The notes below the pieces were generated by a model. It made no database searches. It had not been told where the DNA came from and saw only the letters and a list, made by a program, of their open reading frames with translations. From Catenaria anguillulae PL171 (Eukaryota > Blastocladiomycota > Blastocladiomycetes > Blastocladiales > Catenariaceae), in assembly GCA_002102555.1 (NCBI GenBank), contig MCFL01000128.1, positions 1 through 64,000 on the forward strand: DNA of 64,000 bases. The letters run 5' to 3'. Both the position numbers and the translations under genes were made by a program. Shown piece by piece: positions 2,640 through 27,270 of this stretch (position 1 is the first letter of the stretch; each line of letters begins with the position of its first letter).

Positions 2640-3773
2640 ATGACCGACCTCATGATTGTTGATGCTCAGGCGTCAGCGATCACTGGTTGGGTGGGACCCG
2701 TCCCTTTCTCTGTTGATCCGCAGGCCACTGTCGCCCGGCTCAAGCCAAACTACAATGTCGATGCGCTCCTCGGGCACCGTACTGTCGCTGGAATCAAGTT
2801 TTTACAAGTCTCATACAAAAGCCAAGATGATTTGGCCTCGGCCATCAACAAGCCCTCAACCTTTTTCCGCGGCCAGTACATCCACGCCATGACTGATGTC
2901 AAGGAGTGGTTCAACCAGCGTGCCGACCAAGCCAAGAACGTGCAGATTCTCTGTGCGTACAACACGATCCGCCAGCTCCCTGGTTTGCTCGCCAAGGGCC
3001 ATGCCCTGCTGGTCGACAACTGCCGCGCTCGCTCGTTCTCCCGCATCTTGTGGCGGTACGAGTCCAAGGAGGATGCCGACGCCGCCGTTGGCCTTGGCGA
3101 GTACGCTCTTAACGGTCATGATTTGCGCTTCTTTCCTGGTACTGCCAAGTTGTGTTTTTCTTGTGGTTCCCTGGACCACTTGAGGAATGCATGCCCCACA
3201 CGCCCTCCAGTCAAGACCCTGCCTCCCTCCTTCTCGTTCCCCGCGCCGGCGCCGGCAAGTGCTGGCGGTGTCAGCTATGCTGATGCTGCCAAGCAAGCCC
3301 TCAACAAGGTTGACTCAGTCGAGAGGGATTTGCGTGCCGAGGTCGCGTATTTGGCAGGTCAAGTCAATGACATGAAGGAGCAGCTGGCCAAGTTCTGTGC
3401 CCGGCAAGATGAGCTGCTTGCGGCCCTCAAACTGGCGCAGGACAAGGTCGCCAAGCAAGTCGAGGAGCTTGATACTCGCCAAGAGTCACTTGCCAGTACG
3501 GTCAAGGGGCTTTCGGCAAGTCTCGAGACCCTCACCACCGAGCTTGATGCCGAGTCTGAGATGGTGGCCGAGTTGAAGGCCCACAAGGCAAGGACCTCTG
3601 AGCGGTATATGCGGGTCAACCGCGACCTTGCCATTGTTGAGGCGGACCTAGCAGTAGTGTTGGACGAGCTTTGGCAGTCCAAAGACTTTGCAGCCGCTTT
3701 GACAGCTGCGCAAGAGCTGAGTTGGGCCCACAAGGCAAAAAAGAAGGGTGTGCTGAGCCCAGAGGACATCTGA
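2640..3773 (+). CDS. LINE ORF1 protein, CCHC zinc knuckle and coiled coil, intact
   Basis: This is a 377-residue protein without internal stops. The N-terminal half is shared with the copy at 1-596. A CCHC knuckle sits at about residues 175-190 (CFSCGSLDHLRNAC). Residues from about 220 to 345 are rich in A, E, K, L and Q with heptad character, suggesting a coiled coil for multimerisation. By family knowledge such proteins bind the element's RNA as an RNP component. No ORF2 follows; the next feature is a poly(A)-ended 3' region. It is therefore at best non-autonomous. Confidence 0.8.
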   Translation: MTDLMIVDAQASAITGWVGPVPFSVDPQATVARLKPNYNVDALLGHRTVAGIKFLQVSYKSQDDLASAINKPSTFFRGQYIHAMTDVKEWFNQRADQAKNVQILCAYNTIRQLPGLLAKGHALLVDNCRARSFSRILWRYESKEDADAAVGLGEYALNGHDLRFFPGTAKLCFSCGSLDHLRNACPTRPPVKTLPPSFSFPAPAPASAGGVSYADAAKQALNKVDSVERDLRAEVAYLAGQVNDMKEQLAKFCARQDELLAALKLAQDKVAKQVEELDTRQESLASTVKGLSASLETLTTELDAESEMVAELKAHKARTSERYMRVNRDLAIVEADLAVVLDELWQSKDFAAALTAAQELSWAHKAKKKGVLSPEDI

Positions 3774-3984
3774 AAGGCTGTTTCCTGGTTGGTTTGTTGT
3801 TGCTCCTCCCCGCCTGCTCCTCAATTTCCTTTCCCGCCTCGTCCCCATGGTCGCTTGCGGCCCCTACTGCCACTTGCCTGCCCTCCCTTCTTGCTTGCTT
3901 GTGACGCTCATTTTGTAGCGGTTGTGTTCTGGTCTCTTCCTTCTTGCTTCCTCCTCTTTGGAGCTTTTGAGTTGGTCGTAGCCC

Positions 3985-4056
3985 ACAATACATGCAGTAG
4001 TGTATTTAAAAAAAAAAAAAAAGCTTCAATACATGTGGTAGTGATGTAAAAAAAAA
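3985..4056 (+). repeat. Duplicated 3'-end module with two A runs
   Basis: CAATACATG occurs twice, each followed within about 15 nt by GTAGTG and an A run (about 15 A, then about 10 A). The same CAATACATG string also precedes the LINE 5' leader at 2570-2580. It looks like the 3'-terminal module of this LINE family, copied twice. Confidence 0.6.
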
Positions 4057-4073
4057 AGAACTGGGGTGTCGCC
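4057..4073. repeat. 17-bp target-site duplication, right copy
   Basis: Exact repeat of 1636-1652, directly after the poly(A) tail of the ORF1-only element. Confidence 0.85.
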
Positions 4074-4375: not shown

Positions 4376-4394
4376 GTTCAGGTGGCCGAGCGGT
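4376..4394 (+). pseudogene. Orphan 5' end of tRNA-Leu and left copy of the 18-bp duplication
   Basis: TTCAGGTGGCCGAGCGGT at 4377-4394 is identical to 11757-11774. With the preceding G4376 it supplies acceptor bases GTTCAGG, which pair with CCTGGAC at 11830-11836 of the downstream tRNA, including G1-C72. This is the original 5' end of the tRNA-Leu gene, separated from the body by the 7.36-kb insertion. The A-box promoter element lies inside the duplicated part. Confidence 0.88.
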
Positions 4395-4816
4395 GTAGAA
4401 CGCAGAGTTTATTGAACTGGAGCACAATTATGGTAAGGAGTCAACGGAGAAAACGAATAGAGAACAGATTGGATGGGGCAACCCTCGCAACAATAGTGGG
4501 CGCGCACGCATACTCTTGGACCAACCCGCAGACCCCACTGCTCACCGACATGCCCAGCGGCACCTTGACGAACCAAACAAGAAACAGAACGACGTGAGAA
4601 GAAAAAAGGAGGGGGAAACGAAGCAATCAGACCGGAAAGGAAGTGATTGGGTGGCGGCAACTTGGACCCGAGGCCAGGAAACAGAAGAAAAAGACAAAAC
4701 CAAAACCAAAACCAAAACGAAAAACAAAAAGAACAATACTCATCAGTCGCGCACACAGCGCCCTTCCCTCTCCCACTCTCTCTCCCCTCCCCACTCTCTC
4801 CTTCCACTACCTCCAC

Positions 4817-7800
4817 TCACCACAAAGTGTCTAACCCGTGCATAGCACGAGTTACTCGGGCGTCTGCGTCGCTACGCGTCGATGCGCCGCCAGTGTTGGG
4901 GCACTCGCCGTCCTCGTGCACGAGCAGGGAGAGGCGGCAGAGCGAGCAGAATCCAGCGTTGAGCTGTCTGTTCTTGGTTGCGCGTGGACGGCGCGGCTCG
5001 GTCGGGTCGCGCGGCGCAAGTTGGTCACGTTGCGGCGGCAGGGCGTCGCGGTTGGGTGGTGCCAGGTCAAAAAGCCGCTGGCAGTGGTCGGTCCACACCT
5101 TGGCGTGGAGCGCGTGGCCGAGGAGGGCGGCAATGCCACCAGCGAGGCGGCGCTTGTCCTTGGTCTGCTTGAGCAGTGGGTACACGACCTGGAACTGCTC
5201 GAGCGACATGGCGCCAGTGAGGACGCGGGGCAGCATGGCGGGCGTCCACCACAGCAACAAGATGGACGCGGCGGCGGCGGGAGGGTTGGCGTAGCCGCGC
5301 TCGGCAAGGATGCGCGACAGTTCTTGGTGGGCGTACTCGCGGGCTTCGTCGCGGGCAGGCGCGGTTGCAGGGCACTCAAGCCAGTGTGCGCTGTCGTCGG
5401 TCGCGTCGCATGACGGGCAGCTTGGGCTCGGGAACTTGTGCGGCCACCACTTGTGGTTGCGCGCACGGGTCGGCAGCATGCCCACGAGGAACCGCGAGCG
5501 AAAGGCAATGAGCTTGTTGTGCTTGCGCGACGTGCGACGGTCGCGCCCATTCCCGCCTGCGTGCATGACCAGCGCCATCACACCCACATCCACGCCGGCC
5601 AACTCGATGCCTGCGGCAGTGCTCTTTGACGCCAGCCACGCATGCACCCGCTGGTGCCACGCGTACTTGATGAACTTCCGCGGGTCTGTGCTCACCATGT
5701 CCCCGCCGAACGCGACCACGTGCTGCATCTTGCGCCGGCCCAGCCCAAACGCCGGGTTGACCTTTGCCCGCGGGAGAGATGACTCGGCCCCTGCGTTCGC
5801 CAGCCGATCCGCCGACTCATTGCCCACGTTGCCGGCATGCCCCTTGACCCAGTCGAGCTTCGCGCGCAGGCGCCTCTCGCGCACCACAAGATCAATCACA
5901 TCCCACTCAAGCGACCCCACGGACCGCACGAGAGAACGCAAACCGGGCTTGCGCGAACCCAGCACACGGCCAGCCGCCTTCACAGCCGCCATGGAATCGG
6001 ACAGAATATTGACGACTGACCCAACGGGCGCCAAACACACCGCGGCCAACACGCCCCACTGCTCTGCACGCGTTGACGACACTAGGCCATGGACCGGCCT
6101 CAACGACACCATGTACGCCGCATCCTCGTGCGCGGGAATCTGTTCCTCCTCCTCGGCAGCCACTGCCGCCATCACTCCGTGTTCGGCCTCATCCTCTTCA
6201 CGCACACGATCCCAGAACTCGGTCTCCACACGCGCCTTGTCCCCGTCTACGCCTTCACCAACAAATGCGTGCACGCCTGCGCCCACGGGCCGGGCCCCAC
6301 CACCCTCTGGTGTCTCCATCACGGACCCGTCCGTGTACAAGGTCACTGCGGCGCCATGTGCGACCGAGGGCAACGTGACGCCGTCACTATGCACAGCGAT
6401 TGATCCTGCGCCAGCTGCGAGGTAGCGGCTAAGCGTGAGCGCCGAGGACGGGTACAGCCATGGGCGGAACGGCTCCTCGGGCTGGGCCAAGAGTGGCCAC
6501 GGCAGGTCGCGGATTGGATGGCGGCGAAGTTCTTGCACGCGGCGCAGCAGCGACTCGTGGAAAGGCGTCCAAGAGTTGAGGTTGAGCTTGGTTTCGACGT
6601 GCCGCCGGAAGACGGGCTGGCCCTCTGGCGCGAATTGGCTGGCCCAGTACAGGCCGTGCTTGCGCAGTTGCCTGACGACCGCTGGGTTACGGTGAGCAAG
6701 CGGGTCGTCCTCGCTGAGGAAGAGCGGCGAGTGGTGGCAGCCCGGGTCGACGGCAAATTCGCCGTGCGTGTCGACGACCGAGACGTTGGCAGCGTGCATG
6801 AGCGGCAGCAAATTGGCGAACCAGCACAAGGTTGAGGACGGGGCTTCGGGCGACGGGTATGCGAGCGGGGAGCAGGGCATGGCCAGCGCCCATGCGGCGA
6901 GTCCGAGGCACACGCGAGCCGGCGTACCGAGCGGGCCGCGGTCGTTGAGCATGACGGCCAGCTCTGTGACATGGTGACGCACAATCAGGTTTGAAAGTGA
7001 GTCAAGATCGTGGATGGACGGATGATGAATCAGAGCCGAGGACGTGGAACGATCGACACCAAGCTTCTGCCGAATTAGCGACCGGAACTTGGCATCCCAT
7101 GTATCGATCACGGCGGGTGGCGGCACAAAGTTGCTGGTGCGGTATAGCGCCGCCGGGTATATCACGTTGTTGGCAAAGTAAACTGCCATCTTGCCCGTGA
7201 TTGCCTTGCTCTTGAGGAGCCCGTGCCCCTTTCGGAGCTCGTTCTCAAACGCCTCTCGTGCTGTGCGCGGCCAGTCCTCTGCCGACAACCACACGCCCAG
7301 GTACCGGAAGGGTTGCCGCCCGTCCAGGAATGGAATTGGCTCCCCCTCGACCGTCAGCGGCTCGCCTCGGGCCTCGCCCTTGCAGTTGAGGACCAACATG
7401 GCACCCTTGGACGCGTTTGCCTTGACAGCCGTGACGCGGTTGAACGACGACACGACCCACAGCAGACGCTCCATCTCGAACCGGTTTGGTGCAAAGAACG
7501 CCGCATCGTCGACGTACGCCATGGCCGCCAAACGTGTTGTGTCAACCACCTCGCCATCCGGGCGGTGCGGCGCGGTCCTTGATGGCGCCGGCTCCGGGTC
7601 GCCCGTCTCGCCCTTGCGTGCACACAACGTTACCCCCGGGCACACACGGTTGACCTTGCTCAAGAGCACATCGTAAAAAATGGCCCACATGAGCGGCGAC
7701 TCGACTGCACCCTGCGGGATCCCGCGATGCATGTGGATCGGGTCGGTCAGGCCATACTCGGTCTTGATTCGTGCTGTGCGGCCCGTGAGCAACGAGTCAC

Positions 7801-9898
7801 AGTAAAGTTCGATGAAGGCGTCGGGCACGCGGATGCGCTTGAGGGCGAGACGGAGGATATGGTGCGGGACCGTGTCGAACGCCTTGGACTTGTCCTCAAA
7901 GTATACCCAGAGTTGCTGCTTTCGGGCGCGGGCCTGCGACATGGCGGCGGCGAGCGTCGCGATCGGGAGCGTGGTGCTGGTGCCGGGCAGGACGCTGTGG
8001 CGGGCACCGAGGAGTACGTCGTGGTCGGTGAGCACCTGCATCATTCGGGTTGTGAGGACCTTCATGAACAGTTTGCCCACGCACTCGAGCAGCGTGATGG
8101 GCCGCATGTCGTTGGCCGACCCGGCGTAGCCGACGGGCTTCTTGGGCACGAGCACCATGATGCCCTCCTTCCACGCTTGCGGCACCCGCCTGACGCGGAG
8201 GATAGCGTTGAATAGGTTGAGCAACATTCGCTGGCACTCGTCGCCTGCGTCCCGCAGGAGGCGGTACGTGAGATTTGACTCTCCCGGCGCCTTGTCGAGA
8301 CCCACTTGCGCAAACGCCTCCCTCAGGTCCTTTTCCGTCATCTCGGCTGGCAGCCTCGCCCAGATCTCCGGGTCCACGTCGTCACGCCCCCTGAACTCAG
8401 GCTCCCAATTGCCCAGACCGTGGTAGTCTTGTGGCCCAAACCACTTGCTCGCCTCACGCCAAATGCCCTCTTTGACTTCCGTTGGCTCCCGCGTCAGCCG
8501 TTTGCGGCCGTCGCCCATGTCGCGCAGGTAGAACGAAATGCACGAGTCCGGGCGGAAACGCTCCTTGACCCGGCTGATGACCGACGGCAGTTTGGTGAGG
8601 AAATCCTCATTGCGCTTGTCGATCCGGGCTGCAATCTTTGCGGCTCGCTCCTGGTTGAACTCGACCGCGATCGCCATCCGGAGCACGGAGAGGGCTGCGC
8701 GCGCATACTTGCGGTCGTTGGCGAATTCGGCCCGTGGGTGGAGACCGTGTGACTCGGCAAGCCGGACGGCCTGTGTCGGTGCGGCGCCGCGGCGGCTGCG
8801 CCTTGACCATTTCTTAATGTCGGCAACGGCCTTGTCGAGTGGGTTGGTCGAGTGGTGGGGGTTGGCAAGGAGCTGTGAGAAACGCAACTTGACGGGGAGA
8901 GTATCCTTTGCCGACTCTTGCAAGCCATTGGAAAAGGAAACCCACGCACCATCAACATCGCCAGCAGCCAGCTGGGCGTCAAGGTCAGGAGCGAGTCGCA
9001 GGTCGGACGCGCGCCGGTATTCCTTCCACTGCTCGTCGGTCGCTGCGGCTGCATCAATGTGACGGGAGCGCGCAGCCCTGAGGGCGGCGACAATCCGCTC
9101 CTGCTGAGCCCAGTCGAGCTGCTGACCAAATTCCGTGCAGACAGTGACCGCAGCATGGTCGGTTGCGTGTGGGTGGGGAAGCGTGGGCCATGTCACAGAG
9201 GCCGAAGTTGTTGCTGCAAGCGTCTCACCACACCCGTACAAGTAATCGAGACGGTTCGCGGCTTGATGGGCATTGCGTCGGGTGACGTCGGTGCAACCCT
9301 TGGAGGCGGCTAGGTCGGCAAGTCCCATCTCGAGTGCCAGCATGTCGACCAGTGCTCCTGCGCCAGCGGCTCCTGGGTTGAGGTCGCCACCAAGGAGGAT
9401 GCAGTGGCCAAGGTTGCGAGCGCGGTTGATCTCGGTGCGCAGCCAGGCAGTGAGGTCGGCAACAATGGTGGGAGAGCCGTGCGGTACATACACGCCAAAG
9501 ACAGTCAGTGCAGAAAGGCCAACAAGGTTGATATCCATACGGATGCCATACCCACGGAAGCGGGCAGTGCAGCCGATGTGCGAGTGCAGGTCGCGGCGGT
9601 ACCCAATGAATAGCCCTGACCCCTGCGGGCGCCTGTCGTCGTGTGCCCAGATCATCCGCCATTCGTCCGCTAACTTGTTGTCAATGCCAGACAGAGCCCG
9701 CTTCTTCTCCGCCAGCTTCGTCTCCGTGCCCACGACCACATCCGTGCCAACTGATTCCATAAAGGCCATGACAGCCATCGTCTTGGTCTCGTTGCTGATG
9801 CCGCACACGTTGAGGACTGAAAACGTGACGGTGGGGTCGGCATCAAGTTGGGGCATCATGCGCATGCGCGCGGGGTTTGCTCCTCCAGTCCGACTCAT
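4817..9898 (-). CDS. LINE ORF2: AP endonuclease, reverse transcriptase, RNase H, zinc finger
   Basis: A 1693-residue polyprotein. Residues about 25-245 form an exonuclease/endonuclease/phosphatase fold (GDLNPGAAG, late DHAAVTV). Residues about 520-830 are reverse transcriptase with DKSKAFDTV, GIPQGAVESP and the catalytic YVDD near 795. RNase H spans about 1185-1370, with LYTDGSV and WVKGHAGNVGNESADRLAN. A C-terminal zinc finger (CPSCDATDDSAHWLEC) lies near 1495. By family knowledge it nicks target DNA and copies the element RNA at the nick. Its start ATG overlaps the stop of ORF1 as ATGA (9898-9895), which suggests termination-reinitiation. All catalytic motifs are present, so it may be active. 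Confidence 0.93.
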   Translation of the reverse strand: MSRTGGANPARMRMMPQLDADPTVTFSVLNVCGISNETKTMAVMAFMESVGTDVVVGTETKLAEKKRALSGIDNKLADEWRMIWAHDDRRPQGSGLFIGYRRDLHSHIGCTARFRGYGIRMDINLVGLSALTVFGVYVPHGSPTIVADLTAWLRTEINRARNLGHCILLGGDLNPGAAGAGALVDMLALEMGLADLAASKGCTDVTRRNAHQAANRLDYLYGCGETLAATTSASVTWPTLPHPHATDHAAVTVCTEFGQQLDWAQQERIVAALRAARSRHIDAAAATDEQWKEYRRASDLRLAPDLDAQLAAGDVDGAWVSFSNGLQESAKDTLPVKLRFSQLLANPHHSTNPLDKAVADIKKWSRRSRRGAAPTQAVRLAESHGLHPRAEFANDRKYARAALSVLRMAIAVEFNQERAAKIAARIDKRNEDFLTKLPSVISRVKERFRPDSCISFYLRDMGDGRKRLTREPTEVKEGIWREASKWFGPQDYHGLGNWEPEFRGRDDVDPEIWARLPAEMTEKDLREAFAQVGLDKAPGESNLTYRLLRDAGDECQRMLLNLFNAILRVRRVPQAWKEGIMVLVPKKPVGYAGSANDMRPITLLECVGKLFMKVLTTRMMQVLTDHDVLLGARHSVLPGTSTTLPIATLAAAMSQARARKQQLWVYFEDKSKAFDTVPHHILRLALKRIRVPDAFIELYCDSLLTGRTARIKTEYGLTDPIHMHRGIPQGAVESPLMWAIFYDVLLSKVNRVCPGVTLCARKGETGDPEPAPSRTAPHRPDGEVVDTTRLAAMAYVDDAAFFAPNRFEMERLLWVVSSFNRVTAVKANASKGAMLVLNCKGEARGEPLTVEGEPIPFLDGRQPFRYLGVWLSAEDWPRTAREAFENELRKGHGLLKSKAITGKMAVYFANNVIYPAALYRTSNFVPPPAVIDTWDAKFRSLIRQKLGVDRSTSSALIHHPSIHDLDSLSNLIVRHHVTELAVMLNDRGPLGTPARVCLGLAAWALAMPCSPLAYPSPEAPSSTLCWFANLLPLMHAANVSVVDTHGEFAVDPGCHHSPLFLSEDDPLAHRNPAVVRQLRKHGLYWASQFAPEGQPVFRRHVETKLNLNSWTPFHESLLRRVQELRRHPIRDLPWPLLAQPEEPFRPWLYPSSALTLSRYLAAGAGSIAVHSDGVTLPSVAHGAAVTLYTDGSVMETPEGGGARPVGAGVHAFVGEGVDGDKARVETEFWDRVREEDEAEHGVMAAVAAEEEEQIPAHEDAAYMVSLRPVHGLVSSTRAEQWGVLAAVCLAPVGSVVNILSDSMAAVKAAGRVLGSRKPGLRSLVRSVGSLEWDVIDLVVRERRLRAKLDWVKGHAGNVGNESADRLANAGAESSLPRAKVNPAFGLGRRKMQHVVAFGGDMVSTDPRKFIKYAWHQRVHAWLASKSTAAGIELAGVDVGVMALVMHAGGNGRDRRTSRKHNKLIAFRSRFLVGMLPTRARNHKWWPHKFPSPSCPSCDATDDSAHWLECPATAPARDEAREYAHQELSRILAERGYANPPAAAASILLLWWTPAMLPRVLTGAMSLEQFQVVYPLLKQTKDKRRLAGGIAALLGHALHAKVWTDHCQRLFDLAPPNRDALPPQRDQLAPRDPTEPRRPRATKNRQLNAGFCSLCRLSLLVHEDGECPNTGGASTRSDADARVTRAMHGLDTLW

Positions 9899-11658
9899 TG
9901 CGAGCGGGCTGGGGGAGCGGCGGCGTTGCCGGCAGAGCTGGCAGAGCGGGTGTTGGGGCGGGTTGAGTTGGCCGCAGGGGTGCTTGTCGTTTGACGGGTC
10001 GCCGGGGCTTGTGCTGCTGTTGCGGAGCCGTGCTGCGCGGGTCGTTGGGCAGCCGTACGAGCATGTTGTGTCATTCGGATATCGTCGAGGTGTGACACTT
10101 CCGACATTGTCCTTGCCATGTCGGACTTGCTCTTGGTGGCGCTTGCTGCCCCAGCGCGGGCTGTGGCTGCTGCAGGCGCAATAAACGACGTGTCGGCCTC
10201 GTCTTCGTCGTCCGATTTTGCATTCATGACGTCCTGTCCGCGGAAGCCCTGGTCAGCTTGTGGCTCCTGCAGACGGGCCGTGAGGCGTCCGATCTCTGCA
10301 TCACGTGCAGCGATCTCTGCGTCCTTCCTCGCCAATTCCTCTTGCAGGCTGGCAATCATGGCAGCGTTCCGCTCCTCTGCCTCCCGGTACTCGGCCCGAA
10401 CACGAGCAGCAATCTCCTCTGTCTTGGCTTCGACCAGTGCAGCCACCGCCTCCTTTGCCGCTTCTGCGGCCGTCTCCTTGACCATCTGCTGCATGTCTTG
10501 CTGCTGTTGCCTTTGCTGTTGCTGTTGTTGTTGCTGCTGCTGCAGTTGCTGAGTCTGTTGGCGTTGGTGTGCTTGCTCACCATTGGCGTCCTGGCGGCCG
10601 CCACCGGCAATGTCGGACCAGCGCGAGCCGTCGCGGACACGACCGTCCCCGGCAGTCCGCCTTGGTGTGGGCCCAGCCGCCGGCTTTGGCGCAGGCCGAG
10701 GGCAGCGCTTCACCCCCGAGCACGCTGACACGATATGGTCCACCCCGCCACACGCGTAGCAGGCTTTGCCATTGATCGGTGCCCATTTCGCCTCCTTGAG
10801 CGGGCCAGGCCCGAAGCGAATCGCCATGGCCTCCTCACGTTGATCGGCCGACTCGAAGGTGACCGCGGCAGCACGGACAAGACATTGGTCTGGGCCGCGT
10901 CGCATGACTTGCACAGCCTTTGGTTTCGGGCATCCATACTCGGCAAACAGGCCCATGAGGCGTTGGTCGGTCGTCCCCGGTTGCAAACCGTACAACCCTA
11001 GCGTCGCCTCGTTCTCCGCAGCGCGGTCGGGGCGGTTGCCATCCATGTGCACCTGGAGCATGGTGCCAAGGACAAAGAAGTGCCCACGCTTGATCACTTT
11101 TTCGAGTTCCTTGCATTTGAGCACTCGGAACACAAAGGTGCTGCGGTAGACCCCGCGGAGGCGGGTCGATCCCTTGAGGAGGTCGTCTTTCGGCTTGCCG
11201 GTCTGCGCCGCCAGTTGGGCACCTACAGCCGTGACCGGCATGTCCTTAGGCACACCAGTGACGAAGAGGTCCACCAGCTCAGACTGGGCGTCAGTGGCTT
11301 GGGTGGCGTAATCCTTGAAAACGACAACCTTGTCCCCAATCTTCCAGCCCTCCTGCACAACCTGCTCCCACACCGACTTGGCGTTTGTAAGCAGGACGAC
11401 GATCTTGGGGTCGCCCTTTTTGATGACGAACGACGTGTCGGCCATGTCAAAACTGGCCTGACGCAAATACGTGAGCGTGGGTGCTTTGCCTGGGAAGGCG
11501 TCGGCCCGGGCGTATGCTTCGTATTCGTACTTGGCTTGCGTAGTCCGGTGGAGGGTACGGGTCTGGCGTTGTTGTTCATTGCCGCCGTCGATCTGCATGT
11601 GATCGTCGGCGTTGCGCCCAGCCCCAGCGGGAGCGCCAGGGGGGGCAGTGGTCGGCAT
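9895..11658 (-). CDS. LINE ORF1 (gag-like) with CCHC knuckle and polyQ coiled coil
   Basis: A 587-residue protein directly upstream of ORF2 and overlapping it by four bases. A globular region before residue 290 resembles an RNA-binding ORF1 fold. A CCHC knuckle (CYACGGVDHIVSAC) lies near residues 297-310. A Q-rich tract (about 370-395) is followed by an alanine/glutamate-rich coiled coil (about 395-470), then a low-complexity tail. The start at 11658 is the first ATG after the leader. It shares little with the ORF1 at 2640-3773 beyond general layout. The expected role is RNP formation and target search. Confidence 0.85.
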   Translation of the reverse strand: MPTTAPPGAPAGAGRNADDHMQIDGGNEQQRQTRTLHRTTQAKYEYEAYARADAFPGKAPTLTYLRQASFDMADTSFVIKKGDPKIVVLLTNAKSVWEQVVQEGWKIGDKVVVFKDYATQATDAQSELVDLFVTGVPKDMPVTAVGAQLAAQTGKPKDDLLKGSTRLRGVYRSTFVFRVLKCKELEKVIKRGHFFVLGTMLQVHMDGNRPDRAAENEATLGLYGLQPGTTDQRLMGLFAEYGCPKPKAVQVMRRGPDQCLVRAAAVTFESADQREEAMAIRFGPGPLKEAKWAPINGKACYACGGVDHIVSACSGVKRCPRPAPKPAAGPTPRRTAGDGRVRDGSRWSDIAGGGRQDANGEQAHQRQQTQQLQQQQQQQQQQRQQQQDMQQMVKETAAEAAKEAVAALVEAKTEEIAARVRAEYREAEERNAAMIASLQEELARKDAEIAARDAEIGRLTARLQEPQADQGFRGQDVMNAKSDDEDEADTSFIAPAAATARAGAASATKSKSDMARTMSEVSHLDDIRMTQHARTAAQRPAQHGSATAAQAPATRQTTSTPAANSTRPNTRSASSAGNAAAPPARSQ

Positions 11659-11755
11659 GGGGTGATTTTTGGTGCGTTTGAAAGCTGGCGAGCTGGCGAA
11701 TCCAATGCAGGGAGTGATTTTAATGGCGGCGTGGCTTAGCAGGGCGGCGTTTTTT

Positions 11756-11837
11756 TTTCAGGTGGCCGAGCGGTCTAAGGCGGTAGCTTCAGGTGCTATT
11801 CTCTTCGGAGGCGCAGGTTCGAACCCTGCCCTGGACA
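11756..11837 (+). tRNA. tRNA-Leu (anticodon CAG), rebuilt by the LINE duplication
   Basis: It folds as a class II tRNA. D-arm GCCGAGCGGTCTAAGGC, anticodon stem GTAGC/GCTAT with loop TTCAGGT (anticodon CAG), long variable arm CTC-TTCG-GAG, T-stem GCAGG/CCTGC. The 3' acceptor CCTGGAC pairs with TTCAGG from the duplication, but position 1 is now T (from the element junction) instead of G, giving a T1-C72 mismatch. Both internal promoter boxes are present and a nine-T terminator follows, so transcription is plausible. 5' processing or charging could be affected by the lost G1. Confidence 0.88.
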
Positions 11838-11846
11838 TTTTTTTTT
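11838..11846 (+). terminator. RNA polymerase III terminator of tRNA-Leu
   Basis: Nine consecutive T directly after the discriminator base of the tRNA, the standard stop signal for RNA polymerase III. Confidence 0.85.
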
Positions 11847-24419: not shown

Positions 24420-27270
24420 AGAACGATAAACAGGACTGATGGAGGGTTGGATGGGTCTTTATACCCAACTGAGCGAGACATGAAGAAAGCAAGGTGAAAC
24501 ATAAGAAAACCAAGGAAGGAGCGAGGGGAAGGGGGGCGACGAGGACGGTTCGACAAAATGATTTGAAGCAAAGGAAATGAAAAGAACATGGGATTTCGGC
24601 TTTCTTGAGTGAAATGACCGTTTCCAGCTTGAACAACGAAAACATGAAGTCGAGCATGAGAGACCATGAAGAGGCGAGTGGACAATCAGTGGGCGATGTG
24701 GAAAGGTCAAAAAACGTCTGGTTGGAGTTGATCTTGGTGATGCAAAACGGAAAAGTCCATTGAGGAGTCAGCTTCTTGGCGACGGATTTGGCGGCGTTGG
24801 ACTGAGTCGGCGTGAACAAAGCGACAATGTCACCGACAGCAAAAAGAATGGTGCGGGCGCGCAGCATGGCGCAAAGCTTGGGTCGAAACAAGAAAGCGAA
24901 CAAGATCGTGGGCACGAGCAGGGTTGGATTCTTGTTGTCGGCAATACTTGCTGACATCTTGCAAGTTGGACCAAAGTTGAGAATCGGGTTGATCCAAGTT
25001 GGTGCCAAGAACAAAGTCAATGGGTGAGCACGGATCACGGCCAAACATGAGGAAAAACGGGGATTCACCAAGGTCATCATGGACTTGGGTGTTGTACGCA
25101 AAGGAGATGGCCTGGATGTGCGTATCCCACCTGCTTTGATCGGACGAGTCGGCCAAAGTGACGACGGCAGCGTGCGCATGAAGTGTTCAACCATGTCGTT
25201 GACTTGATGCACGTATGCGGGCGCGTACTTGGATTTGATACCAGATTGAACCAAAAATGCGTCAAAAGACCCAGCAATTAAAGCAGAAACCACAGTCAGC
25301 GATCAATCGGCGAGGAAAACCGAAAACGTGGGCGACACGGGCAAGACAATCTTGCGCGATGACGGCGGTGTTGTTGGTTGTCGGGATGAGCCAGACGAAA
25401 CGAGAGAATGTGCACTGGATGGCAAGGATGCACTTGAAACCGGAGGCAGTGACTGGGAGAGGGCGCCAAAAGTCGAGTGCCACCTTGTCGAGCGGTGCAA
25501 ATGATAAGGTCGGCTCGAGAGCAAAGTCGGACGAGTTGGTGGGTTTGGCTGCTTGACAACGAGCACAGGATGCGACATGGGCAGAGACATCGTTTTCTTG
25601 AGACAACCACCAGCAACGACGGTGGAGACGAGCAAGAGTCTTGTTACGACCAAGGTAGGCGGCCGTTGGATGATCATGAGCGAGTTTGAGCAAATCCGGG
25701 ACCACGGTAGACGGGGCGGCCAAGACACGGAAAGAGATACCGGAACGCACAACAAATCGGGACGGGTCCTTTGCAATGCAGCTGGACAAGGTCTTATCCG
25801 CGGCCTCTTGTTGAGCGATCTCCTTGTGTGAGACACTGTCGGTAATAGCGAGGATGGCGTCGGACGTGTCGGCGTCGGTTGAGTTGGTCGCGGCGCGGGA
25901 CAAAGCATTGGCGACACGGTTGGTGGGACCCGGAATGTGGGTGACAGTGAAGTCGTACTGTTGTAGCAACAATGCCCAGCGGGACAAGCGAGACTGCAGA
26001 TCCTTGGTGGTCATACATAATCCAGCGAAGTGCCGAGTGATCGGTATACAAAGTGAACCGGTTGCATTTGAGATACGGGCACAGCTTCTTGATCGACCAA
26101 ACGACAGCGAGGGCTTCTAGGTCAACAACGCCAGAGTTTTTTTCGGCTCCAACCAAAGTGCGCAAGAGAAAGTAAATGGGTGCCAGCCGGCGAGGAAGGG
26201 CAGTTGAGTGTTGCATAAGCACGGCACGGAGCCCATTGGTCGATGCATCGGTAAAGAGATGAAATGGTTTGGCGAAGTCAGGGAAAGCAAGGACGGGTGC
26301 AGAGCAGATGACATCCTTGAGCGCATCGAAAGCTTGTTGCTGAGCTTGAGACCAGACAAAGTCAACGTTGGCTTTTCGCAAGTCAAACAGCGGACTGGCG
26401 ATCCGCGAGAAATGCGGTACGAATTTTATTTACAAGGCCAAGAAAGGACATGACATCAGCCATCAATTGGCAGGAGTTGGGTAAACGCGAACGGCATGGC
26501 ACTTTTTCGGGTCGGTGGCGACACCGTTTTTCGAGGCAATGAAACCGAGATAGCGCAAGCTGGAGCGGCAAAAATGACACTTGGGGAGCTTGACGGACAA
26601 GATGAATTCGGCGAGACGAGTGAGGACAGCGTGGAGGTGCTGGAGGTGTTTCCTCGAACGAGCCGGACGAGATGATGAAGTAGTCGAGGTGGGCACGAGC
26701 AAACGGAAGCGGCGCAAGAATGACCTGCATCATGCGTTGAAAGTGGGCCGGAGCGTTTGCTATACCAAAGGGCATGCGGACAAATTCGAAGTGACCAGCG
26801 TGAGTGATGAAGGCAGTTTTTGCAATGGTGCAAGGCACATGAGGAAGGTCGAGCGAGGTGAGGATGACACAGCCAGATAGAAAGTCTATCGGGTCGTCGA
26901 TACGCGGCAAGGGGTGCGCATCCTTGCCGGTAATGGCATTGAGGTAGTCGACGCAAAACCGGATCGTGCCGTCGGGCTTGGGGACCATAGTCACTGGCGA
27001 CGCCCAAGGAGAAGTTGGCCGTCGAAAGAGCGGAGGAACCTGTTGGCAGATGTGGGCGTCCCAGCCGTGAAACGATCGAGCGGGATGCGGCGCGCGTCAT
27101 TAGGAGTACCAGCGCCGAAGGAAACGCGCTGAGATGTGTCATGGAACACCTGGGTGGGGCGAGCGGCTGAAGGGCGAGCCGGGGCGGGGAGAGAAGGAGT
27201 GAGAGATGGGACGGCGATCGAGCGCGTCGAGGCCGAGCCAGAGGGCGACGGCCGAGGCGAGGAGTGCACG
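24420..27270 (-). mobile_element. Ty3/gypsy-type pol relic, inactivated
   Basis: Minus-strand frames in order give reverse transcriptase (MVPKPDGTIRFCVDYLNAI, MPFGIANAPAHFQRMM), RNase H (FHLFTDASTNGLRAVLMQ, LYTDHSALRW) and integrase (CARCQAAKPTNS zinc end, LDKVALDFWRPLPV core, YNTQVHDDLGESPFFLMFGR). This gene order is Ty3/gypsy. The YLDD active site reads HLDYFIIS, part of motif A is missing, and the integrase S-D-R-G motif reads ADCG. The frame changes at least four times. No gag, protease or terminal repeats are identifiable. It is a decayed copy. Confidence 0.85.

Follow-up and report, generated by a model that had tools for sequence, protein, structure and literature searches.

Site-specific long interspersed nuclear elements (LINEs) are known chiefly for disrupting the copy of the target that they hit and surviving by target redundancy, or for avoiding the gene body. 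A tRNA-Leu(CAG) gene of the zoospore-forming fungus Catenaria anguillulae PL171 that carries a LINE and is nevertheless called by tRNA prediction raises the question of how such a gene can be entered and rebuilt, and of whether this occurs elsewhere in the genome. The gene lies in a stretch of 64,000 nucleotides (contig MCFL01000128.1, positions 1 to 64,000; hereafter the window), where a LINE with two open reading frames (ORFs) is inserted antisense within the gene and is bounded by exact 18-bp duplications. A preliminary description of the locus had proposed that the duplication rebuilds the tRNA and that insertion, if general, could be harmless. Our analysis confirmed that the finding is real and recurs through the genome, and that the interpretation holds with corrections. 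It is highly probable that a clade of site-specific LINEs with an APE-type endonuclease has the 5' parts of tRNA genes as its main targets, and that an A-box nick together with the offset of the cuts regenerates the gene, its promoter and the landing site.

Both copies of the 18-mer TTCAGGTGGCCGAGCGGT were located, at 4377-4394 and 11757-11774. Reading of both junctions showed that the original position 1 of the interrupted gene (G1) was left at 4376 of the forward strand, followed by the left copy (4377..4394, forward), which is an orphaned 5' part corresponding to tRNA-Leu positions 2-19; G1 pairs with C72, and 7 of 7 acceptor pairs are obtained with the left copy. The right copy (11757..11774, forward) contains the A box, and the rebuilt tRNA-Leu(CAG) occupies 11756..11837 of the forward strand with T1 (11756) opposite C72 (11836) and an Rfam tRNA score of 42.9 bits. 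ARAGORN called tRNA-Leu(CAG) at 11755-11838. On all these points, the exact duplication, the replacement of G1 by T1 and the A box inside the duplication, the preliminary description was correct. The new base 1 is supplied by a T run (11750..11756, forward) joining the element to the right duplication, and T runs of varying length were seen at other full-length 5' ends of the same LINE family (family A). Since this run extends over 11750-11758 ahead of the right copy, the window duplication may measure 16-18 bp. A stretch of nine T (11838-11846) directly after the rebuilt tRNA could be a terminator for RNA polymerase III (Pol III).

No third exact match to the 18-mer was found in the 41.07-Mb, 457-contig assembly, this search gave no exact empty allele of the window insertion, and the reversed 18-mer used as control had 0 matches. 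That the exact 18-mer is found only at the window locus would suit a chance hit, or an assembly artefact, at one tRNA-Leu gene; this explanation is refuted by the loci read on both sides and by recurrence on many contigs and in several isotypes (see below), and we regard it as exceedingly improbable.

Probes derived from ORF2 and from the 3' untranslated region (UTR) found relatives of the window LINE in the same genome. The genome searches scored the best candidates only (28 of 479 for ORF2 and 63 of 1333 for tRNA), and copy counts are therefore lower bounds. The sequence directly outside family A 3' ends is often a tRNA 5' part in reverse complement. Family A targets tRNA genes just after the A box, those for Leu, Arg and Ser and, on one-sided evidence, Gln and His; the family has several isotypes as targets and not Leu alone. 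A second LINE group (group 2), showing 35-39% identity to the window LINE over the matched part of ORF2, cuts about 7 bases earlier, inside the A box, in tRNA-Ala, Cys and Thr genes. Group-2 5' ends adjoin antisense tRNA genes of Ala, Cys, Lys and Thr, Lys being read on that side only. In all loci with an identified tRNA flank the element is antisense to the tRNA.

The family A 3' UTR gave 19 matches, 14 of which reach the 3' end (C13:523.5k, C257, C6, C148 and C279 were left out), and with five 3' ends of a subfamily, A2, one of them just beyond the C13:523.5k match, the family A set comprised 19 junctions. Group-2 3' ends were found with a 68-base probe (29 matches), and 25 of them, from 24 loci, were read, leaving out C224:5071 and three at C357:188k. 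The junctions were compared with 65 tRNA sequences taken from these loci and from the window; this library is therefore not independent of the sites, and it served for the null as well. Matches at 12/12 bases were obtained for 7/19 family A and 19/25 group-2 junctions, and 10/19 family A junctions matched at 11/12 or better. Among 1000 random places in the loci, 2 matched at 12/12 and 4 at 11 or more, and tRNA matches at element junctions are thus far above those at random places. The family A nick fell at ARAGORN position 18-21 in all 10 matching junctions, and the group-2 nick at position 12 in 18 of the 19 perfectly matching ones; the lone off-position hit, at tRNA-Gln position 35 (C13:518k), also ends in GACT^. 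In two copies, L041 (C298) and L042 (C2:521k), about 300-315 bases from the 3' end of family A are followed by unrelated sequence common to both, and these copies are possibly non-autonomous elements.

The flank beyond the 3' end was then compared with the flank beyond the 5' end at 21 loci, nine of family A and 12 of group 2. Eighteen loci carried duplications of tRNA or tRNA-like sequence (13-19 bp), one a duplication of non-tRNA sequence (C223) and two short exact matches only; a duplication of variable length, 13-19 bp, is accordingly present at 19/21 loci, C223 included. The family A duplications were 18 bp in tRNA-Leu (C33, the window), 17 bp in tRNA-Arg (C13), 17 bp in tRNA-Ser (C2), 19 bp in tRNA-Arg (C400) and 17 bp in a tRNA-like target (C414). 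At C45, in tRNA-Arg, 18 bp are shared by the outermost copies of a stack of two elements, and 17 for each element. The 13 bp at C357 fit the A-box consensus with no intact tRNA match, the right side being another element's 3' end, and the two short matches are those of C46 (11 exact bases; 17 with one mismatch) and C19 (7 exact bases). Group-2 duplications of 15-18 bp in tRNA genes for Ala, Cys and Thr were found at C128, C279, C379, C413, C404, C418, C13:82k, C167, C21, C112 and C224. The 17-bp duplication of the non-tRNA locus C223, also group 2, ends in ...CT^C, which points to a sequence preference.

A tRNA gene was called beside the element by ARAGORN or Rfam at 5/9 family A loci (C33, C13, C2, C400 and C19) and at 11/12 group-2 loci, that is, at 16/21 over both groups. 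The concern that other copies might lie at random sites, or have flanks without tRNA sequence, was not borne out by 10/19 family A junctions and 18/21 two-sided loci; it does apply to C223, which lies elsewhere. At C167 (10340-10580, L094) a tRNA-Ala 5' piece, GCGGGGCTTTAACT, separates the group-2 5' end from the rebuilt tRNA-Cys; template switching or a previous insertion may have left it there.

Three empty tRNA-Ala(TGC) genes matched filled loci on both flanks (C187/C379, C69/C413 and C13:238k/C418). Identities were 111/122, 123/128 and 119/128 on the left, where the counts run a few bases into the element, and 163/172, 165/172 and 189/214 on the right. In these pairs the insertion lies after TTTAACT, 17-18 bp are duplicated and the tRNA-Ala is unchanged, with 70.6 bits in all six; the paired loci may be alleles or duplicates. 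Starting from the tRNA genes, 6/10 equal-scoring tRNA-Ala(TGC) genes and 3/12 inspected tRNA-Cys genes (of 13 equal-scoring) had an element end within about 30 bases upstream. The gene list consisted of 61 tRNA matches among the best 63 of 1333 candidates scored, and some of the other upstream stretches had partly been chosen for a nearby LINE, so that rates are stated for Ala(TGC) and Cys only. At C178 and C341 tRNA genes recur at a spacing of about 5.66 kb; a unit containing several of them is apparently repeated there in tandem.

The empty genes also bear on the suggestion that the true target is a tRNA-derived repeat, a short interspersed nuclear element (SINE), hits in genes being spill-over. 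The C414 copy is inserted in a tRNA-like repeat uncalled by ARAGORN, and tRNA-headed elements stand in the left flanks of 10/24 loci, as a SINE target would lead one to expect. However, a tRNA gene was called beside the element at most two-sided loci (16/21), and the genes at the three empty sites are ordinary ones for tRNA-Ala, which largely refutes the SINE reading and makes it very improbable.

Elements were also found stacked at one tRNA gene. The stack at C45 consists of a truncated family A copy and an A2 copy in head-to-tail arrangement, and the tRNA-Arg 5' part is present both between the two and outside them. At C357 the 3' end of an A2 element adjoins a family A copy and carries the same A-box-like piece, and at C112 the tRNA-Thr 5' part CCAGAGCCTTTGTAGCT recurs at successive element ends. 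At 12 of the 24 loci with group-2 3' junctions the neighbour is the 5' end of another element, which is tRNA-headed in ten and has another head in two (L071, judged by eye, and L087). Short elements with a tRNA-like head and a group-2 3' end also insert in tRNA genes. Insertion would also renew the landing site, so that a single tRNA gene collects further elements together with short relatives that are non-autonomous. Telomeric LINEs (TRAS, SART, MoTeR) likewise regenerate their landing site on insertion and can stack in tandem, in telomeric repeats and not in genes. A SINE-like element of about 680 bp, with a tRNA-like head and a group-2 3' end, was observed inside a tRNA-Ala(CGC) gene (C13:81557-82235), and tRNA-like heads in which A- and B-box-like motifs (GGGTTCGAACC) were recognized by eye occur in this element (C13:82030-82340, L093) and in others at C224 (L095), C431 (L058) and C112 (L059).

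The quality of the repair differed between the two groups. Group-2 duplications start 3-6 bases upstream of tRNA position 1 at 11/11 tRNA loci, and because of this the rebuilt tRNAs are whole, with the same score as their empty counterparts (70.6 bits for Ala). Full-length family A copies have a duplication that begins only at tRNA position 2 or 3, the missing bases being supplied by the T-rich junction of the element. Rfam scores of the rebuilt genes against another gene of the isotype were 42.9/52 bits for Leu, 50.6/62.6 for Arg and 45.3/59.5 for Ser. The 5'-truncated family A copy C400 had 7/7 acceptor pairs rebuilt. Judged on predicted pairing and score, the window copy would be a near-complete repair and group 2 a complete one. 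The generality considered in the preliminary description was upheld, and even extended by a second LINE group that restores the gene perfectly; the claim of harmlessness was not upheld for the window copy, where the loss of acceptor pairing (1-2 pairs in full-length family A) and a score of 42.9 against 52 leave "without harm" unproven.

Several observations weigh against the regeneration model. The rebuilt acceptor pairs of full-length family A copies number 6/7 for Leu, 5/7 for Arg (C13) and 5/7 for Ser, against 7/7 with the original 5' parts, so that these copies do not as a rule repair the gene perfectly. C58, a 93% homologue of the window right flank, has only a 3' remnant of tRNA-Leu left; at C58:8600-9030 (L110) this remnant adjoins a stretch weakly like window ORF1 in the same orientation (39 amino acids, 44%, E 3.7e-5). 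The C414 target is a tRNA-like repeat called neither by ARAGORN nor by Rfam at the gathering score, C128 and C279 look like a single insertion present on two haplotypes, or like duplicates, and the two ends at C224, with 18 kb between them, may come from different elements.

Junctions below an 11/12 library match, of which some look decayed and some lie elsewhere, count on the same side and amount to 9/19 in family A (C19, C357 twice, C13:146k, C298, C2:521k, C13:63k, C91 and C212) and 6/25 in group 2 (C112:268k, C199:13k, C252 twice, C223 and C268). C223 is clearly outside tRNA, and C91, C212, C13:63k and C112:268k have no tRNA match on the one side read. For the target of C199:13k and C252 (GCCGGCTTRGCT) the nearest tRNA-gene matches were 2 mismatches away (19 matches, all with 2), and for the C357 target 0 tRNA-gene matches were found with up to 3 mismatches.

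These data could be explained if the repair were incidental and mostly useless, the host surviving by the multicopy nature of its tRNA genes as with R1/R2 in ribosomal DNA (rDNA), and the rebuilt genes, at least those of family A, being dead. Thirteen tRNA-Leu(CAG) genes at 94% identity or more exist in the genome, the rebuilt full-length family A tRNAs lie 9-14 Rfam bits below their isotype peers with 1-2 acceptor pairs lost, and the C58 homologue has lost its tRNA. Yet in group 2 the tRNAs beside elements do not differ from the empty ones in either sequence or score, C400 regained all seven acceptor pairs in spite of its 5' truncation, and both groups duplicate the 5' part of the tRNA despite their different nick. 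We consider useless repair rather unlikely and favour regeneration of the gene. None of the family A ends located by the genome searches lies directly beside the other 12 tRNA-Leu(CAG) genes, whose flanks were not systematically read.

The window LINE itself (family A; 4395..11756, reverse strand) has its 3' end at 4395 (...AATAAACTCTGCGTTCTAC), which recurs in other copies, and its 5' end near 11756 (an A-run, then CGCCGCCCTGC), which recurs in four other strong matches and one weak match. The preliminary description was right in calling it intact, both ORFs being open. ORF1 (11658-9895, reverse strand; 587 amino acids) carries a CX2CX4HX4C zinc knuckle (CYACGGVDHIVSAC), found by Pfam zf-CCHC only below its cut-off (E 0.038), and overlaps ORF2 by ATGA. 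ORF2 (9898-4817, reverse strand; 1693 amino acids) encodes the endonuclease, reverse transcriptase and RNase H. The APE-type endonuclease region (9140..9820, reverse strand) shows E59, D172 and N174, RLD216-218 and DH247-248, and these catalytic positions were invariant across the five proteins aligned; the Exo_endo_phos cut-off was reached by the relatives P0001 and P0002, and the window ORF2, alone below the Pfam cut-off, aligns with their domain. The reverse transcriptase domain (7289..8149, reverse strand; AYVDD; RVT_1, E 8.8e-19, residues 584-870) is followed by the RNase H domain (5786..6088, reverse strand; RNase_H, E 2.3e-11, residues 1271-1371). The flanks are the 18-bp repeats and not long terminal repeats (LTRs), and no poly-A tail was seen at the 3' end. 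With a predicted endonuclease, recognized through its relatives and conserved positions, ahead of a reverse transcriptase, and without LTRs, the element is classed as an APE-type LINE. Truncation at the 5' end was seen in the family A copies C400, C19, C46 and C45 and in the group-2 copy C418.

Other features of the window lie outside the LINE. A 377-amino-acid ORF with a CCHC-like motif (CFSCGSLDHLRNAC) is present at 2640-4060, just upstream of the LINE; a Pfam search of this ORF gave no retroelement domain, the stretch from 3774 onwards had 44 further genome matches, and the region is probably a remnant of another repeat family. A tRNA-Gln(CTG) gene at 832-906 is preceded, in the tRNA sense, by a run of 27 A within 907-1060, and no second copy of its 5' part was found in the window. 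A fragment of an integrase-bearing retroelement (Integrase_H2C2, with rve below its cut-off) lies at 25262-26014.

The standard LINE mechanism is target-primed reverse transcription and, given the antisense orientation, the first nick would be made at the 3' junction, in the sense strand of the tRNA. We infer that the ORF2 endonuclease nicks this strand, in family A after the A box (about position 19, ...GGN^) and in group 2 inside the A box (position 12, ...CT^C), and that reverse transcription of the element RNA starts from this nick, which would place the element antisense to the tRNA. A second cut on the other strand, about 15-19 bp upstream, followed by fill-in, would duplicate the 5' strand of the acceptor and the A-box region, and through this duplication the tRNA body, joined to the element 5' end, would regain a (nearly) complete 5' part and its internal promoter. 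The assembled sequence itself shows position, orientation, duplications, empty and filled pairs, stacks and the tRNA left unchanged after group-2 insertion; the order of the nicks, the priming, the direct recognition of DNA by the endonuclease, and the transcription and function of the rebuilt genes are predicted by the model. Annealing of an element 3' end mimicking the tRNA D arm downstream of the nick was also considered and was dropped, since many element windows do as well: 163/7332 (10 nt) and 1140/7330 (12 nt) in family A, and 825/1362 and 716/1360 in group 2.

Targeting could instead depend on tethering to the Pol III machinery, that is, to TFIIIC or TFIIIB on tRNA genes as in yeast Ty3, the endonuclease having little sequence preference. 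TFIIIC binds at the A box, the elements are found mainly in Pol III genes, those for several isotypes, and insertion takes place in or beside the A box. Precedents exist: integration of Ty3 proceeds through TFIIIB, and the vicinity of tRNA genes is where TRE5, TRE3 and DGLT-A are targeted (PMC5006619). However, the cut is base-exact (position 12 in 18/19 group-2 junctions, 18-21 in 10 family A junctions), the two groups hit mostly different isotypes, and the non-tRNA copy C223 keeps both the CT^C context and the duplication length, as the hit at tRNA-Gln position 35 keeps GACT^. Base-exact cuts, the different isotypes and C223 favour recognition by the endonuclease, and tethering appears unlikely.

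Prokaryotic tRNA-gene integrases also rebuild a tRNA end, by recombination, with the missing piece carried in their own DNA, whereas the Catenaria LINEs would copy the missing tRNA piece from the target. A reverse transcriptase tree of 39 sequences, drawn from two protein searches in each of which about 8000 candidates were scored, placed family A, group 2 and seven metagenomic proteins (P0001, P0002 and P0024-P0028) in one clade (100/100). Group 2 was sister to family A, P0001 and P0024 (95/92), and the joining of P0024 to family A and P0001 was weak (86/31). No Dictyostelium names were among the listed hits of the two protein searches, and a pattern search of viral contigs gave 42 stretches, none of which was confirmed as a relative.

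A literature search found no report of a LINE inside tRNA genes with duplication-based repair; it covered few subscription papers or preprints, and absence there is not proof. The closest precedent is NLTR-A of Dictyostelium purpureum, reported 2-6 bp upstream of tRNA genes (PMC5006619, section 9). NLTR-A and NLTR-B of Polysphondylium pallidum are described there as tRNA-gene-associated non-LTR elements with RNase H after the reverse transcriptase and without a place among the named clades. The 2-6 bp of NLTR-A resemble the 3-6 bp that group 2 would show if seen from the rebuilt side alone, but full-length family A ends run into tRNA positions 1-2, and section 9 of PMC5006619 describes an upstream insertion and mentions neither an orphan tRNA 5' part nor gene repair; the main text of that paper has 0 occurrences of "TSD" or "target site duplication". 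TRE5 and TRE3 of Dictyostelium are APE-type LINEs living with tRNA genes in a compact genome, but at about 50 bp upstream or 100 bp downstream, outside the gene, with poly(A) tails and the order APE, reverse transcriptase, zinc finger (PMC5006619). Here the nick is inside the gene (position 12 or about 19) in matching junctions, which agrees with the distinction from TRE elements drawn in the preliminary description.

Dada DNA transposons insert at defined positions within tRNA genes for Leu, Ala and others, in some cases duplicating TAGCTC (PMC3706591); by our own reading TAGCTC is A-box sequence. They differ in having a DDE transposase and duplications of 6-7 bp (PMC8869645), too short to rebuild a tRNA. 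R1/R2, Utopia, Keno, Mutsu and Dewa are site-specific LINEs in multicopy RNA genes, Dewa lying in the spacer of tRNA-Leu (PMC3706591; PMC4640811). These elements are described as disrupting the rDNA copy they hit or occupying a spacer, and the passages on them do not describe target regeneration; in Catenaria the gene that is hit would not be destroyed in this manner, as a tRNA gene was called beside the element at 16/21 two-sided loci.

The LINE duplication appears to act in Catenaria as a repair device, by which the promoter of an essential gene is entered, the gene is left (nearly) intact and the site can be used again. On this view the cleavage offset should be linked, measurably, to the architecture of the target. 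Such elements also put natural endonucleases with tRNA-gene specificity on offer for studies of targeted integration, and they give a direct way to re-examine elements reported "upstream of tRNA" in other genomes. A wider proposal, which we put forward only tentatively and hold to be conceivable, is that the endonuclease of a eukaryote-wide LINE clade has evolved to cut within tRNA promoters, its two cuts being set apart by the length of the tRNA 5' part, rebuilding the gene and a landing site for any number of elements, that its families split the niche by A-box variant, and that NLTR-A is the same phenomenon seen from one side. If this were true, tRNA genes would be renewable docking sites for any number of elements.

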